DNA of 64,000 nucleotides from Limnochorda pilosa (GTDB lineage Bacteria > Bacillota > Limnochordia > Limnochordales > Limnochordaceae): NCBI RefSeq assembly GCF_001544015.1, contig NZ_AP014924.1:3596001-3660000 (forward strand), read 5' to 3'. Of the stretch, positions 31,836 through 43,611 are shown in pieces. The translations under genes were made by a program, and so were the position numbers. The notes beneath the pieces are model-generated. The model saw only the letters and a list, made by a program, of their open reading frames with translations, did not search any database and had not been told where the DNA came from. Every line of letters starts with the position of its first letter. Positions within the stretch are counted from its first letter, which is position 1.

Positions 31836-31896
31836 TTGACACGGCGCTCGGAAGGGAGTTATATTGGCGATGCTGATACCATACCATGGCTGGGTA
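31836..31896 (+). promoter_or_regulatory. Promoter D with copper-type operator
   Basis: TTGACA 31836-31841, 18 bp, TATATT 31860-31865, then 16 bp to TACC-N7-GGTA (31882-31896), core TACCATGGCTGGGTA, a perfect inverted repeat of half sites. It drives the copper ATPase (start 31998). Confidence 0.8.
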
Positions 31897-31997
31897 TCAA
31901 CCGCACGACCGATGTCCATCCCCTGCGTCCACGGGAGATGGGCACGGCCAGGCGGATCGGATGCCCGGTTGGGATGAACCGCAAGGAGGTGTCGTCG

Positions 31998-34115
31998 GTG
32001 TCTGCTGTAGGCGTGGAAACGCGGGCCCATGTCGACGAACCGGTCGACACGGAGACCGCGGAGCACCGGCGGGAGTACCGGACGCTCATGGCGAAGTTCT
32101 GGTTCGCCGCGATCGTCTCGGTTCCAGTGCTGCTGGTGGCGTACCCCGAGCTTCCGTGGCTTTATGTGCCCTACCTTTTCGGGGATGTGTCCGAGGGCAC
32201 GGTTCGGCTCCTCTGGGCGCTTTCCGGTCTGGTGACGCTGCCGGTGCTCTTCTATTCGGGCCGGCAGTTCTTCACCGGGGCCTGGGGAGCTTTCAAGCAC
32301 CACATGGCCGACATGAACACCCTCATCGCCCTGGGGACCAGCGCCGCGTGGCTCTACTCCACCGTGGCCACGCTGGTGCCCAGCATCTTTCCGGAGGGCA
32401 CGGCCGTCCCCTTCTACGACGTGACAGCGGTGGTGACGGCGCTGGTGGTCCTCGGGCAGGCGATCGAGGTACGGGCCAGGGGGCAGACCAGCCAGGCCAT
32501 CCGAAAGCTCATCGGGCTTCAGGCCAAGACGGCGCGGGTGCTCCGCGACGGGCGAGAGGTCGACGTCTCCGTGGACGAGGTCGAGGTGGACGACATCGTG
32601 GTGGTCCGCCCCGGCGAGAAGATCCCCGTCGACGGTGTCATCGTCGAGGGGCAATCCGCCGTGGACGAGTCGATGATCACGGGCGAGAGCCTGCCCGTGG
32701 ACAAGGCCGTCGGAGACGAAGTGGTGGGCGCCACCATGAACACCACCGGAAGCTTCAAGTTCCGGGCCACCAAGGTGGGCAAGGACACGACGCTGGCCCA
32801 GATCGTGAAGATGGTCCAGGACGCCATGGGGACCAAGCCGCCCATCGCCCGCCTGGCCGACGTCATCTCCAGCTACTTCGTCCCCTCGGTGATGATCATC
32901 GCCCTCGCGGCCTTCGCCATCTGGTTCACCTTCGGACCCAGCCCGGCCCTGGCGTACGCGGTGGTGGTCGCGGTCACCGTGCTCATCATCGCCTGCCCCT
33001 GCGCCGTAGGCATGGCCGTGCCGCTGAGCATGGTGGCGGGCGTCGGCAAGGGCGCCGAGCACGGCATCCTCATCCGGCACGGCGAGGCGCTGCAGACGTC
33101 GGCCGCTTTGACGACGGTGGTGCTCGACAAGACCGGCACCATCACCAAGGGCAAGCCGGAGCTGACCGACGCCGTGCCCGCCCCGGGCTTCGACGTGCCC
33201 ACCCTGCTTCACCTGGCCGCCAGCGCCGACCGGCCTTCGGAGCACCCCCTGGCCCAGGCCATCGTGTCCGGGGCCGCGGCCCAGGGCGCCGACCCCTCGG
33301 ATCCGTCGTCCTTCAACGCCATCCCGGGCCACGGCGTCGAAGCGGTCGTGGACGGCCGGCGGGTGCTTCTCGGCAACCGGAAGCTGATGGGCCGCGAGGG
33401 GATCGACACCGCCTCGGTCGACGAGGTCGTCCAGCGCCTCCAGGGCGAAGGGAAGACAGCCATGTACGCCGCAGTCGACGGGCGCATGGCCGGTGTGGTG
33501 GCGGTCGCCGACACCGTGAAAGAGGATTCGGTTGAGGCGATCCAGGTCATGAAGGAGATGGGCCTCGAGGTGGTGATGCTCACGGGCGACAACGAGCGCA
33601 CGGCCCGCGCCATCGCCGCCCAGGTGGGCGTCGACCGGGTGCTGGCCGAGGTGCTGCCCGAGGACAAGGCGATGGAGGTGCACAAGCTCAAGGCCGGGGG
33701 GAAGAAGGTCGGCATGGTGGGCGACGGCATCAACGACGCACCTGCCCTGGTGGAGGCCGACGTGGGCTTCGCGATCGGCACCGGGACCGACGTGGCCATC
33801 GAGGCTGCGGACGTGACGCTCATGAGCGGCAGCCTCAAGGGCGTCGCCTACGCCATCGAGATCTCCCGGGCCACCATGCGGAACGCCAAGCAGAGCCTGG
33901 CCGGAGCCTTCCTCTACAACACCGCGGGGATCCCGATCGCAGCCGGCGTCCTCTTCCCGTTCTTCGGCGTGCTGCTGTCGCCGCTCCTCGCCGGTGCTGC
34001 CATGGCGGCGTCGAGCGTCACGGTGGTCTCCAACGCGAACAGGCTGCGTTTCTTCAAGGCCAGGAGCTTCAGAGAGCCGGCGCCGGCCGGTCACCTGGGA
34101 GGTGCGAGCGCATGA
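31998..34115 (+). CDS. Copper P1B-type ATPase without HMA domain (CopB-like)
   Basis: 705 residues. Heavy-metal transporting P-type ATPase: TGES ([10 protein letters not shown]), CPC in [11 protein letters not shown], phosphorylation [18 protein letters not shown], and [26 protein letters not shown]. No HMA (CxxC) domain at the N-terminus, as in CopB-type pumps; N-terminus is charged. TM helix pairs around residues 35-85 and later. Start GTG 31998 after AAGGAGG. Overlaps the following cupredoxin by 4 nt. Under promoter D. Metal is likely Cu(I), inferred from neighbours. Confidence 0.93.
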
Positions 34116-34486
34116 GCACGACCCAGATCGTCGTCGACATCCTGACCGCTCTGGCCATCGGGCTGGTGGCCTGGTACTTCTGGTTCTCTCGCCGGGAGGG
34201 CGTCGAGGCTGCGGCCGCCAACGGCGTCCAGGAGATCCAGATCAAGGTGAAGGGCGGTTACGATCCGGACATCATCACCGTGAAGCGAGGCATGCCCGTA
34301 CGCCTCCTCTTCCACCGGATGGAGTCATCCGTGTGCAGTGAGATGGTGATCTTCGATAAGCTCAACCGCTCCACCAGGCTGCCCGAGGGCGAGACGGTGG
34401 CCGTCGAGTTCACCCCGGAGCAGCCCGGAGAGATCCCCTTCCAGTGCCAGATGGGGATGCTGCGAGGCAAGGTCGTGGTCCGCTGA
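34112..34486 (+). CDS. Membrane-anchored cupredoxin, first of two
   Basis: 124 residues. N-terminal TM ([16 protein letters not shown]), then cupredoxin fold with [31 protein letters not shown] and [16 protein letters not shown]. Potential ligands: His of LFHR, Cys of SSVCSE, Cys and Met of FQCQMGM. ATG overlaps the ATPase stop, so it is co-translated and probably delivers to or accepts copper from it. Resembles the copy at 43228. Confidence 0.85.
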
Positions 34487-34648: not shown

Positions 34649-36178
34649 TCATGCTTGATCTGGACGTGGCCCTGAGCTGAATTCAGGGGCACGAACAGGT
34701 ACCACGGCTCGGACCGTTGTGCCTTTGTTGGGCCCGGACCCGATCTCGAGGGATCCTCCCAGCAGCCGGGAACGCTCCTCCATGCCGAGCAGGCCGAACT
34801 GGCCGCTGGCCAGGCTGCCGCCCTGCGCCGGCGGGTGGAACCCCTTGCCGTCGTCGGTCACCGCGACAGCCACGGTCGTCTCGCCGGAGAAGTCGAGCCG
34901 AACCCGCACCCTCGACGCCTGGGCGTGGCGCTCGGCGTTCCGCAGGGCCTCCTGCGCGATCCTGAACAAGGTCAGCTCCACGTCAGGCGGGAGTCGCCTG
35001 GCCTTCCCCCGCACCTCGAAGCGCGCCTCCACGCCGGCCCGCTGGCCGAGATCGGCCACGAGCCGGCGAACGGCCGGCGTGAGGCCGAGGTCGTCCAGGA
35101 CCGGCGGTCTCAGGTCGCCGGTGAAGCCGCGCAGGGAGTCCGCGATCCGGGCGGTTTCCTCCCGGACGGCGTGAAGCCGCTGGGAGAGGTCGGGCGGGCC
35201 TTCTCGGGCCCGTTCTTCCATCTCGTCGAGCTCGCGGCAGACGAGGATGAGGGACTGGATCGTATCGTCGTGCAGCTCCTGCGCGATGCGCTTCCGCTCC
35301 TCCTCCTGGGCTCTGAGGATCTGGCCGGCGTAGTTGCGCAGGCCTTCCTCCTGGCGGCGCTCCTCCGTCACGTCGCGGAGGATCACCTGGGTGACTCGAG
35401 AGTTGCCGTTCTCCGTGAAGGTGGTGACGACGGGTCTCAGGTGCACCTCCCGCCCCTCGGCACAGACGAGCACCACGTCTCGCACGGCCTGCCGGGCCCG
35501 TTCCTCCGACAGGATGTGCGCCACCGTCTCCTCGTCCAGCAGCGCGGAGAGAGGGACTCCCCGCAAGTCTGCGGAGCTCTTCCCGAAGAGCCTCCCGGCG
35601 ACCTGGTTCGCCTCCCGCACCACCCCGGCGGCGTCGATCACCATGACGGCTTCGCCGGCCGTCTCGAAGAGCCCCCTGTAACGGGCCTCCGATGCCCGCA
35701 GCGCGTGGCCCGCCCTCACCGCGTGCTCGCGCGCCTGGGTCTCCAGGTCAACCCGGCGCCCGACGAAGACCGCCACCGCGTTGACGATGAAGATCTGAAA
35801 GATGACGCCCCAGCGCTCGAGCCCCGTGTGCCAGAGGACGAAGTTGGGGGTACTGATCACCGTGGCCCAGAGGGCCGTGGCGACGGAGCCCGGGAAGCCG
35901 AAGTTGAGCGCCGCGTAGACGACCGGGACGAAGAAGAGCGAATCTGGAACGAAGTAGAAGGGGCCCATCGGCGTACCTTGGCCCGCCAGCTCGATGAGGT
36001 TGTGGGCCCCGGCGATGAGGATCACCAGGGCCTGGACGTACCAGAAGCGCAGCTCGTGGAAGCGGGGTCGATAGCGGGCGATCGCGGGTACGTCTGTCCC
36101 TCGACAGGTCTCCAATCCAGGTCGAACCTCGACCGTGGCCGGTGCTTCGGATGGGCCTTCACGGCCCTCGGTTCTCAT
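34649..36178 (-). CDS. NarL-type sensor histidine kinase with PAS domain
   Basis: 509 residues. N-terminal polytopic membrane region (about residues 40-145, several helices), PAS domain (EARYRGLFETAGEAVMVIDAAG, VILRDVTEERRQ), HisKA_3 dimerisation/phosphoacceptor ERKRIAQELHDDTIQSLILV, and HATPase (FRIAQEALRNAERHAQ, VTDDGKGFHPPA, GLLGMEERSRLLGG). The stop of the regulator overlaps its start. Faces away from the membrane-protein pair at 37118. Signal unknown; such kinases often sense redox or oxyanions. Confidence 0.9.
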   Translation of the reverse strand: MRTEGREGPSEAPATVEVRPGLETCRGTDVPAIARYRPRFHELRFWYVQALVILIAGAHNLIELAGQGTPMGPFYFVPDSLFFVPVVYAALNFGFPGSVATALWATVISTPNFVLWHTGLERWGVIFQIFIVNAVAVFVGRRVDLETQAREHAVRAGHALRASEARYRGLFETAGEAVMVIDAAGVVREANQVAGRLFGKSSADLRGVPLSALLDEETVAHILSEERARQAVRDVVLVCAEGREVHLRPVVTTFTENGNSRVTQVILRDVTEERRQEEGLRNYAGQILRAQEEERKRIAQELHDDTIQSLILVCRELDEMEERAREGPPDLSQRLHAVREETARIADSLRGFTGDLRPPVLDDLGLTPAVRRLVADLGQRAGVEARFEVRGKARRLPPDVELTLFRIAQEALRNAERHAQASRVRVRLDFSGETTVAVAVTDDGKGFHPPAQGGSLASGQFGLLGMEERSRLLGGSLEIGSGPNKGTTVRAVVPVRAPEFSSGPRPDQA

Positions 36179-36855
36179 GGCCGCGGGTCACCCTCTTCGG
36201 AGACGGTGAACCAGTGGTGCTGGGCGCCGTAGATCACTGCCCCGGTGCGAGAGGTGACCCCCAGTTTCCCGAAGATGCTGCTGAGGTGGCCTTCCACGGT
36301 ACGCACACTCACGTGGAGCGCCTCGGCGATTTGCATGTTGCGGAGGCCCTTGGCCACCAGGCGGAGGACCTCCATCTCCCGGGGCGTGAGCGGGTGCTCG
36401 TCGCGGGGCGGGGAGGGCGCTGGGCGGGAGCCGCCCTCCGACCAGAGGCGCGCGATCTTCTGGGTGATGGCAGGATGGAGTACGGTCTCGCCTTTGGCGA
36501 CGGAGCGGACCGCCTCCACGACCTCCCGCGCGGGCGCGGTCTTCAGGAGGTAACCGGCGGCGCCTGCTTCCATCAGGGCAAAGACGTAGTCGTCATCGTC
36601 GTAGGCGCTGAGGATGAGCACGCGCGTCCCGGGAGAGGTGCTCCGAAGCCGGCGGGTCACCTCGACCCCGTTGAGCCGCGGAAGGCGGATGTCCACCAGC
36701 GCGACGTCGGGACGCATTCGGCGCGCCAACTCCACGGCGGACTCACCGTCAGCCGCTTCCGCGACGACCTCGCAGTCGGCCTGCTCTTCGAGGATCCGCC
36801 GCGTCCCCTCGCGCACGAACGCGTGGTCCTCGGCGATGAGGACGCGCGTCTTCAC
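36175..36855 (-). CDS. NarL/LuxR-family response regulator
   Basis: 226 residues with the chosen GTG start 36855. Receiver (TRVLIAEDHAFVREGTRRIL, VALVDIRLPRLNGVEV with phosphoacceptor Asp, GAAGYLLKTAPAREVVEAV) and LuxR HTH (LTPREMEVLRLVAKGLRNMQ, IAEALHVSVRTVEGHLSSIF). A longer ATG start at 36882 has no ribosome site; GGGGGCGG precedes GTG. Overlaps the sensor start. Paired with the kinase gene; divergent from the paralogous membrane proteins 37118-39426, which it may regulate. Confidence 0.92.
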   Translation of the reverse strand: MKTRVLIAEDHAFVREGTRRILEEQADCEVVAEAADGESAVELARRMRPDVALVDIRLPRLNGVEVTRRLRSTSPGTRVLILSAYDDDDYVFALMEAGAAGYLLKTAPAREVVEAVRSVAKGETVLHPAITQKIARLWSEGGSRPAPSPPRDEHPLTPREMEVLRLVAKGLRNMQIAEALHVSVRTVEGHLSSIFGKLGVTSRTGAVIYGAQHHWFTVSEEGDPRP

Positions 36856-37117
36856 CACGAAACCGCCCCCGTCGCGCTCCATTCTATCATGTTTCCCGAT
36901 AAGGGCTCACGGGTGAAATCACGTAGGGACGACAGGCGTTTCCACGGGTCGCCTCGGGTGGATTCCACGAAGCCGAAACAGGAGCTATCCCGCTTGTGGC
37001 GCTGAAACAGGGTCCCATAGCATGTAGGTGGAGCCGCTGAGCCGGCGTCACACGGCCGCCCTTCGGGGACGCCGGCCCGGCTCCAGGGACAGAAAAGGGG
37101 AAAAGGGGGACGTCTCC

Positions 37118-38005
37118 ATGGTCGACTCGCTTCGGTGGGTGATGAGAACAGGACGGTTCTTCGCTCTCCTCCTCCTGCTCGTTTCGATCTCTGCCGTCGC
37201 CGGCGCGGACACCGCCCGTGCCGATCCGGGCCACGGCGACGGAGAGAGGATCGAAGCGGCGGTTCCGGCGGCGGAAGAGACGGTAGGTCATGGCACTACG
37301 GGTGCCCTGACCTCACCCGTGCCCGAGGTCACCGCCGAGGAGGCCGGTCATCAGGAGGACGCTGGTGGAGGACGGGCCGCGGCCGCCTCGCGGACCGAGC
37401 GCCTGCTCGTGGTCGGAGGCGAAGCCTTCGTGGAAGGCCTGCTCACCTTCCTCCTCGCGGTCCTCTGGCTGCTCCTCGTGGCTCTTCAGCTGGCCCGGCC
37501 GTACGTCCTTCAGCTCGTCGACAAGTTCTCCCTCAGGCTGGGAGCCGATCTCTGGTGGCTCGCCTACGTGCTGATCCGGGATTTGCTCTTCGTGGCCACC
37601 TTCGTGCTGAGCTTCTTCTTCTACTACCCGATGCTCCTCGGGGAGCGGGCCTTCCCCATCACCGGCTCCCTCGCAGCGACCCTGCTCTTTGCCGTCCTCG
37701 TCCTGAAGCTGACCCGCGACGTGGACGACGACCCAGCGGCTTTCCGGCTGGTCACCAACCTGACGGCGACGGGCGCCGGGCTCTACCTGGCGGCCGTCAT
37801 CCTCGGGGTGGAAGCGTCCCGCCTCGAGGCCTTCGAGACCATCAGCCCGTGGCTCGTCACCCACACCAACCCGGCCTGGGCCTTCGGGTTGCTCTGGCTC
37901 TCCTACGCCGGGCTCCTCGCCCTGGGAACGGCGGCGGTGCGGTACGTGCTCGCGACGACCCGGGGGGCCGGGCTGGCCCGGAGGCCAGCGCGTGCGGGAC
38001 GCTGA
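37118..38005 (+). CDS. Membrane protein paralogue 1 of a ferredoxin-associated pair
   Basis: 295 residues. Signal peptide (about 8-31), His-containing external region DPGHGDGERIEAAVP and GHGTTGALTS, then TM segments (FVEGLLTFLLAVLWLLLVAL; LIRDLLFVATFVLSFFFYYP; AATLLFAVLVLKL; and others). Motifs shared with the protein at 38575: ARPYV...KFSLRLGADLWWLAYVLIRD, PITGSLAATLLFAVLVLKLTRD followed by DDD, and ILGVEAS. ATG 37118 has AAAAGGGGG upstream. No known family recognised. Likely membrane redox or ion module with the ferredoxin next door. Confidence 0.7.
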   Translation: MVDSLRWVMRTGRFFALLLLLVSISAVAGADTARADPGHGDGERIEAAVPAAEETVGHGTTGALTSPVPEVTAEEAGHQEDAGGGRAAAASRTERLLVVGGEAFVEGLLTFLLAVLWLLLVALQLARPYVLQLVDKFSLRLGADLWWLAYVLIRDLLFVATFVLSFFFYYPMLLGERAFPITGSLAATLLFAVLVLKLTRDVDDDPAAFRLVTNLTATGAGLYLAAVILGVEASRLEAFETISPWLVTHTNPAWAFGLLWLSYAGLLALGTAAVRYVLATTRGAGLARRPARAGR

Positions 38006-38043
38006 CCCTTGCCCCAGGGTAGGGACGTAAGGAGGGGAGATCT

Positions 38044-38508
38044 GTGCCATTTCGCTTCCGCGTCAACGGAGGACGTTGCTTCAACTGTGGCGTCTGCGTG
38101 GACGTCTGCCCCGTGGCCACGCTGGACATGACCCGGCCCAAGCGGCCGGGGCCGGAGGGCACCTTCACGCGCGAGACGGACGGCGCCAAGGACTGGATGA
38201 TGGCCTTCCCGATCCAGACGAGATCGTGCATCGGCTGCAGGATCTGCGAGATCGAGTGTCCGGTCCTTGCCATCACCATCGAGGAGGTCGAAGCAGAGCC
38301 ATCATACGCCGAACGCCAGGGTCCCATCTTCTCGGAGCCCGAAGAGAGGGACGCCTGGATTCCTCTCTCCACGCTGACCAGGGCGGCCGCCAGGGACCGG
38401 AAGAACCAGCAGGACCCGTGGCCCGGCCGCGCATGGAAGACCCATGCCCAGGCCAGGAAACGGGTTGGACGTTTCTTCCGCCTGCATGAGGGTCTGGAAT
38501 CGTCATGA
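38044..38508 (+). CDS. Cytosolic 2[4Fe-4S] ferredoxin-like protein
   Basis: 154 residues. Two CxxCxxCxxxCP motifs: CFNCGVCVDVCPVATLDM and CIGCRICEIECPVLAITI, separated by a ~45-residue insertion; the C-terminal ~65 residues are basic and not typical of small ferredoxins. Start GTG 38044 after GGAGGGG. Between the two paralogous membrane genes, so it probably exchanges electrons with them. Could also be a polyferredoxin subunit of a membrane reductase. Confidence 0.88.
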   Translation: MPFRFRVNGGRCFNCGVCVDVCPVATLDMTRPKRPGPEGTFTRETDGAKDWMMAFPIQTRSCIGCRICEIECPVLAITIEEVEAEPSYAERQGPIFSEPEERDAWIPLSTLTRAAARDRKNQQDPWPGRAWKTHAQARKRVGRFFRLHEGLESS

Positions 38509-38574
38509 CACCGTGAACGGCCTCGCCCGCGAACCAGCGGGCAGGATGGCCGGGAAAGAGAGGGAGATGGGGGG

Positions 38575-39426
38575 ATGAGAGGCATGAAGATGTCCAGAAC
38601 GTTCCGCCGTGCCCTGGCTCTTGTCTTCGTGGCGCTCCTGCTGGCAGCCTCCGCCGGCGCCGTTTCAGCCGCCGAAGGACACGCGGAGGTGGCCGGACCC
38701 ATGGCCGCCGAGGCCATGGCGCACACCCATGCGGTCGACGAGACCACAGAAGGCCTGATCGACGGGCTGATGAGCGGCGGTTTCGCCTTCCTCTACATCA
38801 CGCTGGCGGCCATGCTGCCGCTCCTCTGGGTTCTGGCGCTCATCCTGCACCTGTCCCGCCCCTACCTGGTCCGCACCATTCGAAAGTTCACCCTCCGGTT
38901 CGGGGCGGACGTGTGGTGGCTCCTCTACGTCATGATCCGGGATGCGGTGATGATCCTGACCTTCGCCATCAGCGTCTTCTTCTTCTTCCCCGACAGGGTG
39001 GCGGGCCTCCCGCTGCCGGTCACCGCACCGCTCGCGACGATCTTCCTCTTCTGGGCCCTGTTGATCAAGCTGACCCGCGACGCCGACGACGACGCCGGGG
39101 CATACCGGAAGGTCACGTACCTCCTGCTGGTGGGCGCGACGACCTACCTGGTTCCCTTCCTGTTCGGCGTGGAAGCGTCCATGGAGGGTTGGGAGGCGGC
39201 CCGCAGCGCCATGTCCAGCTCCCAGAACCCCGCCCTGAGCATGCCGATCCTCTACCTGTCGCTGGTGCTCCTGGGCGCCACGGGCGCGTACATCTTCTAC
39301 TTCGTGGCGAGGGGCGTGGCTCGCGCTTCGGGCCGCGGGGGCACGACGTCGAGACTGGCTGGCAGAAGGGAACGGGCCCTGCGCCACCACGAAGCTCCCA
39401 CCGCCGGTCCAGGGGAGGCGGGCTAG
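38575..39426 (+). CDS. Membrane protein paralogue 2 of a ferredoxin-associated pair
   Basis: 283 residues. Signal peptide ending near residue 30 (AASAGAVSAAEG), His/Ala-rich external part EGHAEVAGPMAAEAMAHTHA, then TM helices. It matches the protein at 37118: LSRPYLVRTIRKFTLRFGAD, WWLLYVMIRD, LPVTAPLATIFLFWALLIKL followed by TRDADDD, LFGVEAS, and NPAL. Six or so TM segments. Duplication of one gene around a ferredoxin suggests a heteromeric membrane complex. No known family recognised. Confidence 0.7.
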   Translation: MRGMKMSRTFRRALALVFVALLLAASAGAVSAAEGHAEVAGPMAAEAMAHTHAVDETTEGLIDGLMSGGFAFLYITLAAMLPLLWVLALILHLSRPYLVRTIRKFTLRFGADVWWLLYVMIRDAVMILTFAISVFFFFPDRVAGLPLPVTAPLATIFLFWALLIKLTRDADDDAGAYRKVTYLLLVGATTYLVPFLFGVEASMEGWEAARSAMSSSQNPALSMPILYLSLVLLGATGAYIFYFVARGVARASGRGGTTSRLAGRRERALRHHEAPTAGPGEAG

Positions 39427-39486
39427 CCGAGGCGGGGCGCCCCACAGAGAGTCCCGCACAACGGCGTACCGCGTGCGCGGCGACGC

Positions 39487-39660
39487 CCGGGAGAGCACTC
39501 TTCCGGGCATCGCCGCGCCACCTTCCTTTCCTTGGCCTGATCCTCTATGGCGCGGCGGTCTTGGCAGCCGTCCTCGCGCCCGCGCCCCTCGGCGAGCTGC
39601 CTATCCAGGGCGTTGCGATCACCAAGCCCCCGTGGTTTTCCTGGCCGCTCTACGCGGTCC
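39487..39660 (+). pseudogene. Remnant of a cytochrome b (bc/b6f-type) C-terminal region
   Basis: A plus-strand frame reads HLPFLGLILYGAAVLAAVLA, then PAPLGELPIQGVAITKPPWF and SWPLYAV. This matches the C-terminal part of cytochrome b or subunit IV (PPWFFWPLYALE). It has neither start nor stop of its own and then runs into an oppositely oriented fragment. Decayed gene. Confidence 0.65.
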
Positions 39661-39671
39661 GCCGCGGCGGA

Positions 39672-39985
39672 AGAGCGGAAGAGCGGATAGCCCCGGAACA
39701 CTTTGGCCAGAATGTATCCGCAGATCTGAGCCGCCTCGACGGACGGACGAATCCCCTCGCCCGAGGCCGGGAGGCACTGGCCGGCCGCATCGCCCACCAC
39801 GAAGAGGTTGCCGACGACCGGATCCCTGAGCCCGTAAGCCAGCACGCCGCCGTGGAACCGGTCGGGCATCGGGAGCCCGATGCGCCCCACGAAGGCCTGA
39901 AGGATCTGCTTGAGCGGAGCCCGCCGATCGTAGCTGCCCACGCCTACCCGCGTGGTGGCGTCTGGGCGCATGAGGCGCCGCTCAT
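39672..39985 (-). pseudogene. Remnant of a geranylgeranyl-reductase-like FAD oxidoreductase
   Basis: Minus-strand frame [20 protein letters not shown], then VLAYGLRDPVVGNLFVVGDA and AGQCLPASGEGIRPSVEAAQ. This is the conserved C-terminal FAD-binding region (VGDAAG) of the geranylgeranyl reductase family. The N-terminal Rossmann part and the end are missing, so it is a fragment. It overlaps in the other frame the 3' end of the CopZ-like gene. Confidence 0.7.
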
Positions 39986-40219
39986 GCCCCCCAACTTCAA
40001 CCACGCCCGCGCTCGCCTCGCCGTATACCCCATCTCTTCGACGACGTGCACGACCGCTTGCGTTTCCGTGCGCTCGGGGTCGAAGCGCACCGTCGCCTGC
40101 TCGACGGTGAAGTTGACGGACGCTGTGCCGACCCCGGGAATCTCGCCAAGCGCCCTTTCGATCGTAGGAGCGCACGATGGGCAGCTCATGCCGCCGAGTC
40201 CGATCCGAACCTCCGCCAC
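39944..40219 (-). CDS. CopZ-like heavy-metal-associated (HMA) domain protein
   Basis: 91 residues. [53 protein letters not shown]: a complete HMA domain with CxxC metal site (CPSC). Start GTG 40219 with GAGGTGAGGAA upstream. The last ~20 residues ([18 protein letters not shown]) are non-family and come from the junction with the geranylgeranyl reductase remnant, so the gene may have lost its own ending. Copper chaperone, inferred from the neighbouring ATPase. Under promoter E. Confidence 0.85.
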
Positions 40220-40249
40220 CTTCCTCACCTCGCAAGCAGACATCCCATG

Positions 40250-40310
40250 TACCGTGCCTGGGTACTGTATTGTCAACTCCACTGTAGTGCCATCGCACCC
40301 ATCGCGTCAA
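40250..40310 (-). promoter_or_regulatory. Promoter E with copper-type operator
   Basis: Minus strand: TTGACG (40305-40310), 18 bp, TACAGT (40281-40286), then 16 bp to TACC-N7-GGTA (40250-40264), perfect half sites. It lies 30 nt before the CopZ-like start and about 235 nt upstream of copA on the other strand. Confidence 0.75.
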
Positions 40311-40390
40311 GTGGAGTGAGAGAACTCTCAGACGGCAGACTCCCCTCCGGGAGGGAGGCCCCCTGCCACCTGGGAGGACATGGCAGTCCA

Positions 40391-40416
40391 GCATCGAAAA
40401 AGTCCCGCATCGAAAA
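40391..40416 (+). repeat. Direct repeat GCATCGAAAA upstream of copA
   Basis: GCATCGAAAA occurs at 40391-40400 and 40407-40416, 16 bp apart, about 80 nt before the copA start. Possible operator; no match to a known regulator. Confidence 0.35.
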
Positions 40417-40498
40417 GAGGACATGCTACGCGGGTAAACTTCCTAACAGATGCGGCTTCAGCGAACACAAGAATGTCCGGCTTCAGGGAGGAATTCCC

Positions 40499-43198
40499 AT
40501 GGATCACCCGAGTCCGGAGGAGCCGAGCACGGTCGAGGTTGCCGAGGCAACCCAGGGCTCCCGGGAAGCCGCCGTCGCGGTAGCTGACCCACCCTCCCGT
40601 CTCCGCACGCAACTGGTCCTGCCGGACCTCGACTGCCCCCACTGCGCGGGGCGGGTGGCCGAGGCGATCCGAGGGGTCGACGGGGTGCTGGAAGCCCACG
40701 TCAACCCCACGACCCGCAGGGCGCACCTGCTCTACGACCCCGCCCGCCTCTCTATGGAACGGCTCGTTCAGGCCGTGCGCCAGACAGGGTACCGCATCGA
40801 CGGGGCACGCCTGCAGGTGGGCCTCGTGGGGATCCACTGCGCTTCGTGCGTGGACAGGCTGGAGAAGGCGCTCCTGAAGGTACCGGGGATCCGCTCGGCG
40901 GAGGTGAGCCTCGGCACTCAGAAGGTCACGCTCGAATACGGCCTGGGCCGACTGGACCTGCAGGGGGTCCGGCAGGCGATCGAGTCGGTGGGCTATACCC
41001 CCGTACTCCCGGGTGAGCCAGGCCCCGCCCCAACCCCGAACCGGCTCCAGGTACATCCCCAGCGTGAGGGCCAGGGCCCGAATCCTGCCGAGACCACCGC
41101 CGCCCACCCCGGCCACGGCACCGCGCTGCGGCCTACCGAGCCGGAGGTCGAAGCAGAGGAGCTCACCCCCCAGGAGGAGGCGGCCCGCCGGGAGTACCGC
41201 GATACCTTCAACCGGGCCATCTTCGGCATCGTCGTGGGCGTGGTGGTGATGATCTTCAGCTTCCGGCGGCTCATCCCGGGGCTCGCCACGATCCCCGAGG
41301 AGACGGCCCGCTGGATCTGGATGGCGCTGGGGGCGCTCAGCCTCTTCGTCATGCTCTGGGCGGGCCGGGTCTTCTTCACAGGGGCTCGGGCCGCTTTCCG
41401 GCACCACTCGGCGGACATGAACACGCTGATCGCGGTCGGTACCGCGGCGGCCTGGCTCTACTCCACCATCGCCCTGGTCTGGCCCGGCCTCTTCCCCGAG
41501 GGCACCGCCGAACCCTTCTACGACGTGGTGACGGTGGTCATCGGGCTGGTCCTGCTGGGCCAGGCGCTCGAGATCCGCGCCCGGGGCCGGAGCTCGGAGG
41601 CCATCCGGAAGCTCCTGAACCTGCAGGCCAAGACAGCCCGGGTGATCCGGGACGGGAACGAGCTGGACCTGCCCGTGGAGGAGGTGGTGGTGGGCGACGT
41701 GATCCGGGTCCGGCCCGGCGAGAAGGTCCCCGTGGACGGGGTGATCGTGGACGGTGAGAGCGCGCTGGACGAGTCGATGCTCACCGGCGAGCCCATCCCC
41801 GCGGAGAAGGGCCCCGGCGACGAGGTGATCGGCGCGACGCTGAACACCAGCGGCTCCTTCACCTTCCGGGCCACCAAGGTGGGCAAGGAGACGGCCCTGG
41901 CCCAGATCGTCCAGATGGTGGAGGAGGCCCAGGGCTCCAAGGCTCCCGTCCAACGGCTGGTGGACGTGGTGGCCGGCTACTTCACCCCCGCGGTGATCCT
42001 CGTCGCCATCCTCACCTTCATCGTCTGGTTCGACTTCGGTCCCTCGCCCGCCCTCACCTATGCGCTCATCACCGCCGTGACGGTGCTCGTCATCGCCTGC
42101 CCCTGCGCCCTGGGGCTGGCCACCCCCATGTCGCTCATGGTGGGGGTGGGAAAGGCGGCGGAGAGGGGCGTGCTCATCCGGAACGGCGAGGCGCTGGAGG
42201 GCGCCCAGACCCTGGAGGCCATCGTGCTGGACAAGACCGGCACCATCACCCGCGGCAAGCCTGCCCTGACCGACGTGGTGGCCCTGGAGGGCTTCTCCGA
42301 AAAGGAGCTCCTGAACCTGGTGGCGGGGGTGGAGCGGGGATCGGAGCATCCCCTGGCCCAGGCCATCGTGGACGGCGCCCGCGAGCGCCTGGGCGACGAC
42401 CTTCCCGAGGCGAAGCAGTTCCAGGCGCTCTCGGGGCGCGGCGTGATCGGCCGGGTGGACGACCGGGAGGTGCGCCTGGGCAACCGCAGCCTCATGCAGG
42501 AGGCGGGCATCGACACGGCGGCGCTGGCGTCGGAGGCGGAGCGGCTGGCCGGAGAGGGGAAGACCCCCATGTACGCCGCGGTCGACGGGAAGCCCGCCGG
42601 GCTCATCGCGGTGGCCGATACCATCAAGGAGGACTCGGTGGAGGCGATCCGGGCCCTCCGGGAGCTGGGGCTCGAGGTGATCATGCTCACCGGCGACAAC
42701 CGGCGCACCGCGGAGGCGATCGCCCGCCAGGTGGGCATCGACCGGGTCCTGGCCGAGGTGCTGCCCGACGAGAAGGCCCACCAGGTCCAGAAGCTCCAGA
42801 TGGAGGGCAAGAAGGTGGCCATGGTGGGCGACGGGGTGAACGACGCTCCCGCCCTGGCTCAGGCCGACGTGGGGATCGCCATCGGCACGGGCACCGACGT
42901 GGCCATCGAGGCGGCCGACGTCACCCTCATCACCGGGAGCCTCTGGGGGGTCGTCTACGCGATCGAGGTCAGCCGGGCGACCATGCGGAACATTCGCCAG
43001 AACCTGGCCGGCGCCTTCGGCTACAACACGCTGGGCATCCCCATCGCCGCGGGGGTGCTCTTCCCCGCCTTCGGGGTGCTGCTCTCGCCCCTGATCGCCG
43101 GCGCTGCCATGGCCTTCAGCTCAGTCACGGTGGTGACCAACGCCAACCGGCTGCGGGGGTTCCGGTCCAGGCTGGTGCCCGAGCGGGTCGGGGCCTGA
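40499..43198 (+). CDS. copA: Copper-exporting P1B-type ATPase CopA with two HMA domains
   Basis: 899 residues. Two N-terminal HMA domains with CPHC and CASC sites ([20 protein letters not shown]), a Pro/Glu-rich linker, and P-type ATPase core: [13 protein letters not shown] in [11 protein letters not shown], phosphorylation [18 protein letters not shown] and [20 protein letters not shown]. Start ATG 40499 follows AGGGAGGAATTCCC. Exports Cu(I). Compared with the CopB-like ATPase at 31998 the core is very similar ([18 protein letters not shown] region), so the two are paralogues; followed by a cupredoxin as there. Regulation by promoter E region or the GCATCGAAAA repeats is not settled. Confidence 0.95.
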
Positions 43199-43227
43199 CG
43201 GTCGCTCCTGCGTGAGGAGGTGGGCCG

Positions 43228-43611
43228 ATGCTGATCGCGAAACTGCTGGTCACCGCCGGGGGTCTGGGGCTGATGGCCCTGGTAGCCTGGTACTTCTGGT
43301 TCTCCCGGGAGGCGGGCGTCCGGGCGGAGACCACGGCGGGCGGACGCCAGGAGGTGACCGTGGTGGTCAAGGCGGGCTACGACCCGGACGTGGTGGTCGT
43401 GGAGGCAGGCCGTCCGGTGCGCCTCAACTTCCGGCGGGAAGAGGCGGCCGGATGCTCCGAGCGGGTGGTCTTCCCTGCCTTCGACAAGAGCGCCCGGCTT
43501 CCCACCGGCGAGACCGTCTCCATCGATCTGGACCCTCCCGGGCCCGGCGAGTACGAGTTCGCCTGCCAGATGGGGATGTACCGGGGGAAGCTGGTGGTGG
43601 AGCGGGCGTGA
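43228..43611 (+). CDS. Membrane-anchored cupredoxin, second copy
   Basis: 127 residues. TM ([21 protein letters not shown]), then cupredoxin fold with YDPDVVVVEAGRPVRLNFRR, AAGCSERVVFPAFDKSARLP and FACQMGMYRGKLVV. Close relative of the protein at 34112, including the TM segment VAWYFWFSR and the LPTGETVSIDL element. ATG 43228 after GAGGAGGTGGG, 29 nt behind copA. A third, decayed copy of its 3' half lies at about 44930-45050. Confidence 0.85.
   Translation: MLIAKLLVTAGGLGLMALVAWYFWFSREAGVRAETTAGGRQEVTVVVKAGYDPDVVVVEAGRPVRLNFRREEAAGCSERVVFPAFDKSARLPTGETVSIDLDPPGPGEYEFACQMGMYRGKLVVERA

Follow-up and report, generated by a model that had tools for sequence, protein, structure and literature searches.

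A recurrent bacterial gene unit of two paralogous five-helix membrane proteins and a two-cluster ferredoxin, a candidate quinone oxidoreductase

The window, the whole stretch of 64,000 nucleotides analysed here (G000:C1:3596001-3660000, from a genome of 3.817 Mb on a single contig), contains three genes in which a 2[4Fe-4S] ferredoxin lies between two paralogous membrane proteins, MemA and MemB. This three-part unit was found in 78 loci of other genomes, and the membrane pair is conserved there together with the ferredoxin. We tentatively propose, with a confidence that comes close to an even chance, that the unit encodes a quinone oxidoreductase, so far undescribed and linked to ferredoxin or NAD(P)H, whose membrane module of 5+5 helices does not depend on haem. 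The energy yield of a cell is set by electron traffic among NAD(P)H, the quinone pool and ferredoxin of low potential, and to our knowledge few enzyme types transfer electrons among these three. If the proposal is true, the unit would be a new enzyme type and would help to account for electron flow in many lineages from soil and the subsurface that are uncultivated. No description of the MemA-ferredoxin-MemB unit was found in the open-access literature.

The three genes and their products

The earlier note had reported three genes on the same strand, and open reading frames were found exactly there: MemA at 37118..38005 (+), the ferredoxin at 38044..38508 (+, GTG start) and MemB at 38575..39426 (+), separated by gaps of 38 and 66 bases. 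A purine-rich sequence resembling a ribosome-binding site precedes each of them, and a scan for promoters and terminators found nothing. The paralogy of MemA and MemB and the recurrence of the unit elsewhere rule out that the trio is a product of chance or a frame artefact.

When MemA was aligned with MemB, 92 of 228 residues (40%) were identical with an E value of 4e-45, which is far above chance, and this alignment contains every one of the long motifs for which the two had been called paralogues. Each protein shows a signal-like helix at the N-terminus, a His- and acid-rich external segment and five further hydrophobic helices, both by hydropathy and in the structural model, in agreement with the signal peptide, His-containing external segment and several TM helices described before. 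The distribution of Arg and Lys suggests that the N-terminus is outside and the C-terminus is inside. The two paralogues share about 15 positions that vary little or not at all, and in MemB numbering these are W85, R95, P96, Y97, L107, R108, D112, W115, Y118, R122, D123, P139, K165, D171 and Y191. In addition, Glu102 and Glu106 are invariant in MemA alone, while in MemB alone P82 is invariant and Glu200 is nearly so (96% of MemB). Most of the conserved Mem positions fall on the predicted cytoplasmic side.

Haem sites in the pair, which the earlier note had raised, are not supported because no His is invariant. Helix 1 has a His at its end in 91% of MemB and 82% of MemA; this His is present in both partners of 34 of the 47 A/B pairs, whereas Gln, Tyr or Phe replaces it in one or both partners of the other 13. 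At this position locus L050 has Gln in both partners and the window has Gln in MemA. We rejected a membrane haem b between MemA and MemB, since its His ligand is not conserved, and consider a membrane haem unlikely as a general feature of the pair.

The AlphaFold2 model of MemB had a pLDDT of 86 and a pTM of 0.73. For the pair, MemA and MemB of locus L023 were read through the TAG stop as a single chain, which is a modelling device only, and the resulting model had a pTM of 0.80, a value that could be inflated since the chain consists of homologous, pseudo-symmetric halves. This model suggests a MemA/MemB dimer but does not prove it, because it came without an interface score or coordinates.

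The ferredoxin has 154 residues with a C-terminal extension. As had been claimed for the gene between the membrane genes, it is a two-cluster protein, with two CxxCxxCxxxCP motifs, both with their cysteines intact, and matches to Fer4 families of Pfam (Fer4_7, E 6e-11); its top NCBIfam match, NuoI, is weak (46 bits against a cut-off of 113). All eight cysteines are invariant across 72 of 72 ferredoxin sequences of the unit, and a W-x-M motif between the clusters is kept in 92-93% of these 72. The window ferredoxin matched a Chloroflexota fusion of ferredoxin and GltD at 46% over residues 2-134 (E 8e-26), and since the match has this span, the likeness reaches past the cluster domain. Judged by sequence, the window ferredoxin is the orthologue of the N-terminal part of the fusion (about 135 residues). 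This orthology, the invariant cysteines and the W-x-M motif together argue that the ferredoxin is a subunit of the unit and not a bystander.

Neither MemA nor MemB matched a family in Pfam or NCBIfam, so that profile searches place them in no characterised family, just as the earlier note had recognised none. Scans of aligned relatives (57 of MemA, and 49 of MemB against Pfam only) gave no named family beyond isolated weak matches, including single antiporter-like matches in MemA members (MnhB, E 0.005, not significant). Similarly, no Pfam or NCBIfam match to quinone-reactive subunits of the NrfD/PsrC or HdrE type was found for MemA, MemB or their homologues, and the invariant pair of membrane His ligands that marks SdhC/D, NarI or b561-type proteins is absent from the pair. 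Among PDB sequences, the MemB profile had no relative and the MemA profile had one match at chance level (E 1.4). Fold searches returned no PDB match at E 0.001 or better, and VIA reached Z values up to 10 with generic helical bundles only, cytochrome b6 being listed among them at Z 8.2. This lack of a fold match does not show that the Mem fold is new. We also rejected a degenerate cytochrome b, since hhalign of the MemB profile against 15 cytochrome b domains gave a probability of 0.4%, while the same profile reached 99.3% in the positive control against Nitrospirae Mem copies.

Recurrence, gene order and distribution

The profile scan covered 84,980 genomes and gave the 78 loci, with the window counted apart. 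MemA and MemB occur together in all 78, as a tandem pair or, in Nitrospirae, as three copies, and the ferredoxin is present with them wherever the contig is complete. Nearly always there is one pair (two Mem copies) per genome. The order Fd..GltD-MemA-MemB is found in 63 of the 78 loci, and six others (L006, L007, L046, L048, L050 and L069) share the MemA-Fd-MemB order with the window; the GltD domains (Fer4_20 and Pyr_redox_2) are absent from the window's unit and from these six. Seven loci are cut by contig ends, five having the GltD part upstream with the ferredoxin missing and two starting at MemA, and the last two are extended Nitrospirae loci with three Mem copies. Two outcomes would have spoken against the earlier note, a trio without conservation and membrane proteins of an ordinary family beside an unrelated ferredoxin, and the searches gave neither.

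The fusions inspected are proteins of about 650 residues, with the ferredoxin at the N-terminus followed by Fer4_20 and Pyr_redox_2 (E 5e-33). The best NCBIfam match of the Chloroflexota fusion is PRK12771 (E 2e-144; 482 bits, cut-off 516) over residues 155-635. Long ORFs of several loci, among them L021, L041, L016 and L031, seemed to join GltD to MemA in one frame. Those of L021, L041 and L016 were dismissed as fusions, since the upstream part reads as shifted-frame sequence; in L031, a C-terminal GltD fragment lies upstream in the frame of MemA.

Carriers belong to at least three bacterial phyla, Bacillota, Chloroflexota and Nitrospirae, and the named strains include Dictyobacter aurantiacus, Dictyobacter kobayashii and Vulcanibacillus modesticaldus. 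The unit was found in 30 of 301 sampled Chloroflexota genomes (about 10%) and in 6 of 148 genomes of the Nitrospirae phylum. Two other groups gave 1 of 246 and 1 of 250, and both times the sole match was the genome used as the centre. Among 398 genomes of the window's phylum, only the window's own genome carries the unit, with one match set aside; this match, in G336 (another Bacillota genome), where the surrounding ORFs look polysaccharide-export-like, was taken as chance. None of 60 relatives of the window's genome had the unit in searches that used single proteins and not the more sensitive profile. There was no match in PLSDB that would indicate carriage on plasmids. The unit of L072, a genome titled Proteobacteria, falls inside the Ktedonobacteria clade in the tree, probably owing to misassignment of the bin or to transfer of the unit.

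In a tree of 159 Mem domains, built by a quick method and rooted at the midpoint, all MemA sequences lie on one side of a branch with a support of 99, and the MemA and MemB groups each contain Bacillota and Chloroflexota members. Because each group spans both phyla, it seems that a single A/B duplication predates the spread of the unit and that both copies were kept. The distribution is patchy, and horizontal transfer is likely.

Proposed function and alternatives

In the mechanism that we propose, MemA and MemB would form a heterodimer with 5+5 membrane helices, and the RPY, R-x-x-x-D-x-x-W, R-D and K...D residues would cluster on the cytoplasmic side, where the two-cluster ferredoxin would dock. 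Electrons would move between a donor in the cytoplasm, the two [4Fe-4S] clusters and menaquinone at a putative site in MemA/MemB, probably in the direction from the reduced carrier to the quinone. In Chloroflexota, NAD(P)H would be the donor or acceptor through the fused GltD-like FAD domain. The constant core is the two-cluster ferredoxin with MemA/MemB, the GltD flavoprotein being optional. The quinone, the direction and any ion coupling are what we infer.

In most genomes, the fusion with a GltD-like NAD(P)H flavoprotein makes NAD(P)H the likely soluble partner of the ferredoxin. The MemA-Fd-MemB units have no GltD domain, and therefore their ferredoxin must exchange electrons with a separate soluble partner. 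In the window's genome the best GltD homologue is about 0.42 Mb from the unit, and in Vulcanibacillus there was no Fer4_20-type GltD match, with only weak matches to the flavin domain. On the membrane side, no cofactor or quinone site in MemA/MemB is identifiable by homology; since the pairs are unlikely to have a membrane haem in general, a quinone is the simplest partner. A MenG/UbiE match exceeded the cut-off in 10 of 14 carriers and stayed below it in four MAGs. Complex I NuoH is encoded elsewhere in the genome in 13 of the 14, and a second NAD(P)H:quinone route is thus not required. A bolder form of the proposal, which we regard as possible but rather doubtful, is that MemA/MemB may found a new class of quinone-reactive membrane modules that lack haem and have an unsolved fold, and that with the ferredoxin it may form a minimal ferredoxin:menaquinone oxidoreductase missed in Bacillota, Chloroflexota and Nitrospirota, to which the NAD(P)H module would be an add-on.

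By analogy, the nearest described architecture comes from anammox bacteria, in which Rieske/cytochrome b complexes bear NAD(P) oxidoreductases, such as Kuste4569-4574 and Kustd1480-1485 of Kuenenia stuttgartiensis, where subunit-IV-like proteins with five helices are reported (PMC12954380). In both systems a FAD/NAD(P) module on the cytoplasmic side, containing several iron-sulfur clusters, would be placed on a membrane module, and the Nitrospirae version of our unit likewise has Rieske, cytochrome b and multihaem c genes beside it. However, the MemB profile shows no relation to the 15 cytochrome b domains compared, and neither a Rieske nor a cytochrome b subunit belongs to the units examined in Bacillota and Chloroflexota.

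The distant Nitrospirae Mem copies are true relatives of the pair (hhalign 99.3% and 99.5%). Their strand-run comprises a GltD-ferredoxin protein, a di-haem cytochrome c, a Rieske protein (E 3e-14 in L115) and five-haem and other c-type cytochromes, and three Nitrospirae genomes (G776, G451 and G450) have a cytochrome b on the same contig. Since these clusters hold Rieske, cytochrome b and cytochrome c genes, the Mem module is tied there to a respiratory chain. Three Nitrospirae runs (L114:4026-9898, L115:732-12088 and L117:2-7991) combine three Mem copies and GltD-ferredoxin with Rieske, cytochrome b, multihaem c and two further membrane proteins, one of about 181 residues that is FtrD-like with Cys4 and an unnamed one of 144 residues; these runs look like an undescribed respiratory supercluster.

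These clusters also bear on a reverse mode, in which quinol would reduce ferredoxin or NAD(P)+, the drive coming from the membrane potential or from coupling to a Rieske/cytochrome b complex. Such a mode has been proposed for the anammox complexes carrying NAD(P) oxidoreductases, and both the joining of the module with Rieske, cytochrome b6 and multihaem cytochromes and the Fd-GltD layout, with 2+2 predicted clusters and FAD, recall Kuenenia and its cluster path (PMC12954380). We nevertheless consider it unlikely, because the flanks read in most carriers contain no Rieske or cytochrome b gene, none being seen in the Bacillota and Chloroflexota loci listed, because the membrane subunits are unrelated to cytochrome b, and because 13 of the 14 carriers checked have complex I.

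Alternatively, the pair could take electrons from ferredoxin or NAD(P)H through the membrane and deliver them not to quinone but to an acceptor outside the cytoplasm, which could be cytochrome c, a metal or a thiol. One Nitrospirae Mem copy has an exported N-terminal domain with CxxCH and has di-haem cytochrome c neighbours, His-rich external segments occur among the members examined in Bacillota only, and the helix 1 His is frequent in both paralogues. On the other hand, this His does not provide an invariant pair of haem ligands, and the Chloroflexota proteins inspected begin almost at the first membrane helix, almost without an external segment, so that we regard export as quite unlikely. 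At L082:754-1836 and L083:2967-4052, a Mem copy is fused to an exported domain that has a single CxxCH haem motif and weakly resembles BatD/DUF7141.

The preferred quinone oxidoreductase resembles RNF in its proposed role of ferredoxin-linked membrane electron transfer. Unlike RNF, the three-gene unit has no RnfB, RnfC or RnfG, and MemA, MemB and their homologues show no homology to the membrane subunits Rnf A, D and E in Pfam and NCBIfam. The suggestion of the earlier note, a ferredoxin-linked membrane complex unlike RNF, therefore stands as to the difference from RNF, the lack of a family and the conserved unit, whereas the physical complex and the electron direction are proposals. An RNF-like role, in which MemA/MemB of a ferredoxin or NAD(P)H oxidoreductase would couple electron transfer to Na+ or H+ pumping, appears improbable to us. 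The invariant charges in or at the edge of the membrane helices (R122-D123, K165 and D171), the paralogue-specific Glu residues and the non-significant MnhB-like match would fit it, but the module is small, with one paralogous pair, and has no above-threshold similarity to membrane subunits of Rnf, Nqr, complex I or Mrp.

As in complex I/Fpo/Fqo-type enzymes, a two-cluster ferredoxin subunit stands beside membrane subunits and an NAD(P)H module is optional; unlike those enzymes, the unit has no NuoH or antiporter-like subunits. The Chloroflexota fusion shares Fer4_20 and Pyr_redox_2 with GltD/Nfn-type NAD(P)H flavoproteins (PRK12771, PRK12814) but differs from them in that a two-cluster ferredoxin with motifs of its own is added at the N-terminus and a membrane pair is obligatory, and the window's unit has no flavoprotein.

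Neighbouring genes

Among the flanking ORFs scanned, the window's unit consists of the three genes and a two-component system. The earlier note had described the trio as divergent from a NarL-type system, and the corresponding domains lie on the opposite strand, in a response regulator (Response_reg and GerE, 36175..36882, -) and a PAS-HisKA_3-HATPase sensor histidine kinase (34649..36178, -) that overlaps it by 4 bases. When we considered the 56 loci with at least 4.5 kb upstream, a regulator homologue was found beside 41 and a kinase homologue beside 39. The regulator is upstream in 46 cases and downstream in 3, mostly co-directional, and this bias speaks against background gene density as the cause. 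It is likely that the neighbouring NarL-type regulator controls expression of the unit. A non-respiratory role under control of the kinase, for example as a membrane sensor or a ferredoxin-fed membrane biosynthetic enzyme, would suit this recurrent neighbour and the patchy distribution, but it is highly improbable given that neither a His-box nor another catalytic motif typical of membrane desaturases or hydroxylases is among the conserved residues and that the fused FAD-NAD(P) domain and the Nitrospirae respiratory genes favour electron transfer.

Two similar genes for P1B-type (copper-like) ATPases, at 31836-34486 and about 40400-43611, bracket the kinase, the regulator and the trio. Each is directly followed by a Cupredoxin_1-like protein, with the domain confirmed by Pfam for the first copy only. 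A reading frame at 39423-40424 (-) had no Pfam match at 1e-5 and has the C-terminal look of a FAD-dependent reductase; it is overlapped by a small heavy-metal-domain-like ORF (GMSCPSC) at 39944-40282, and both are possibly decayed genes.
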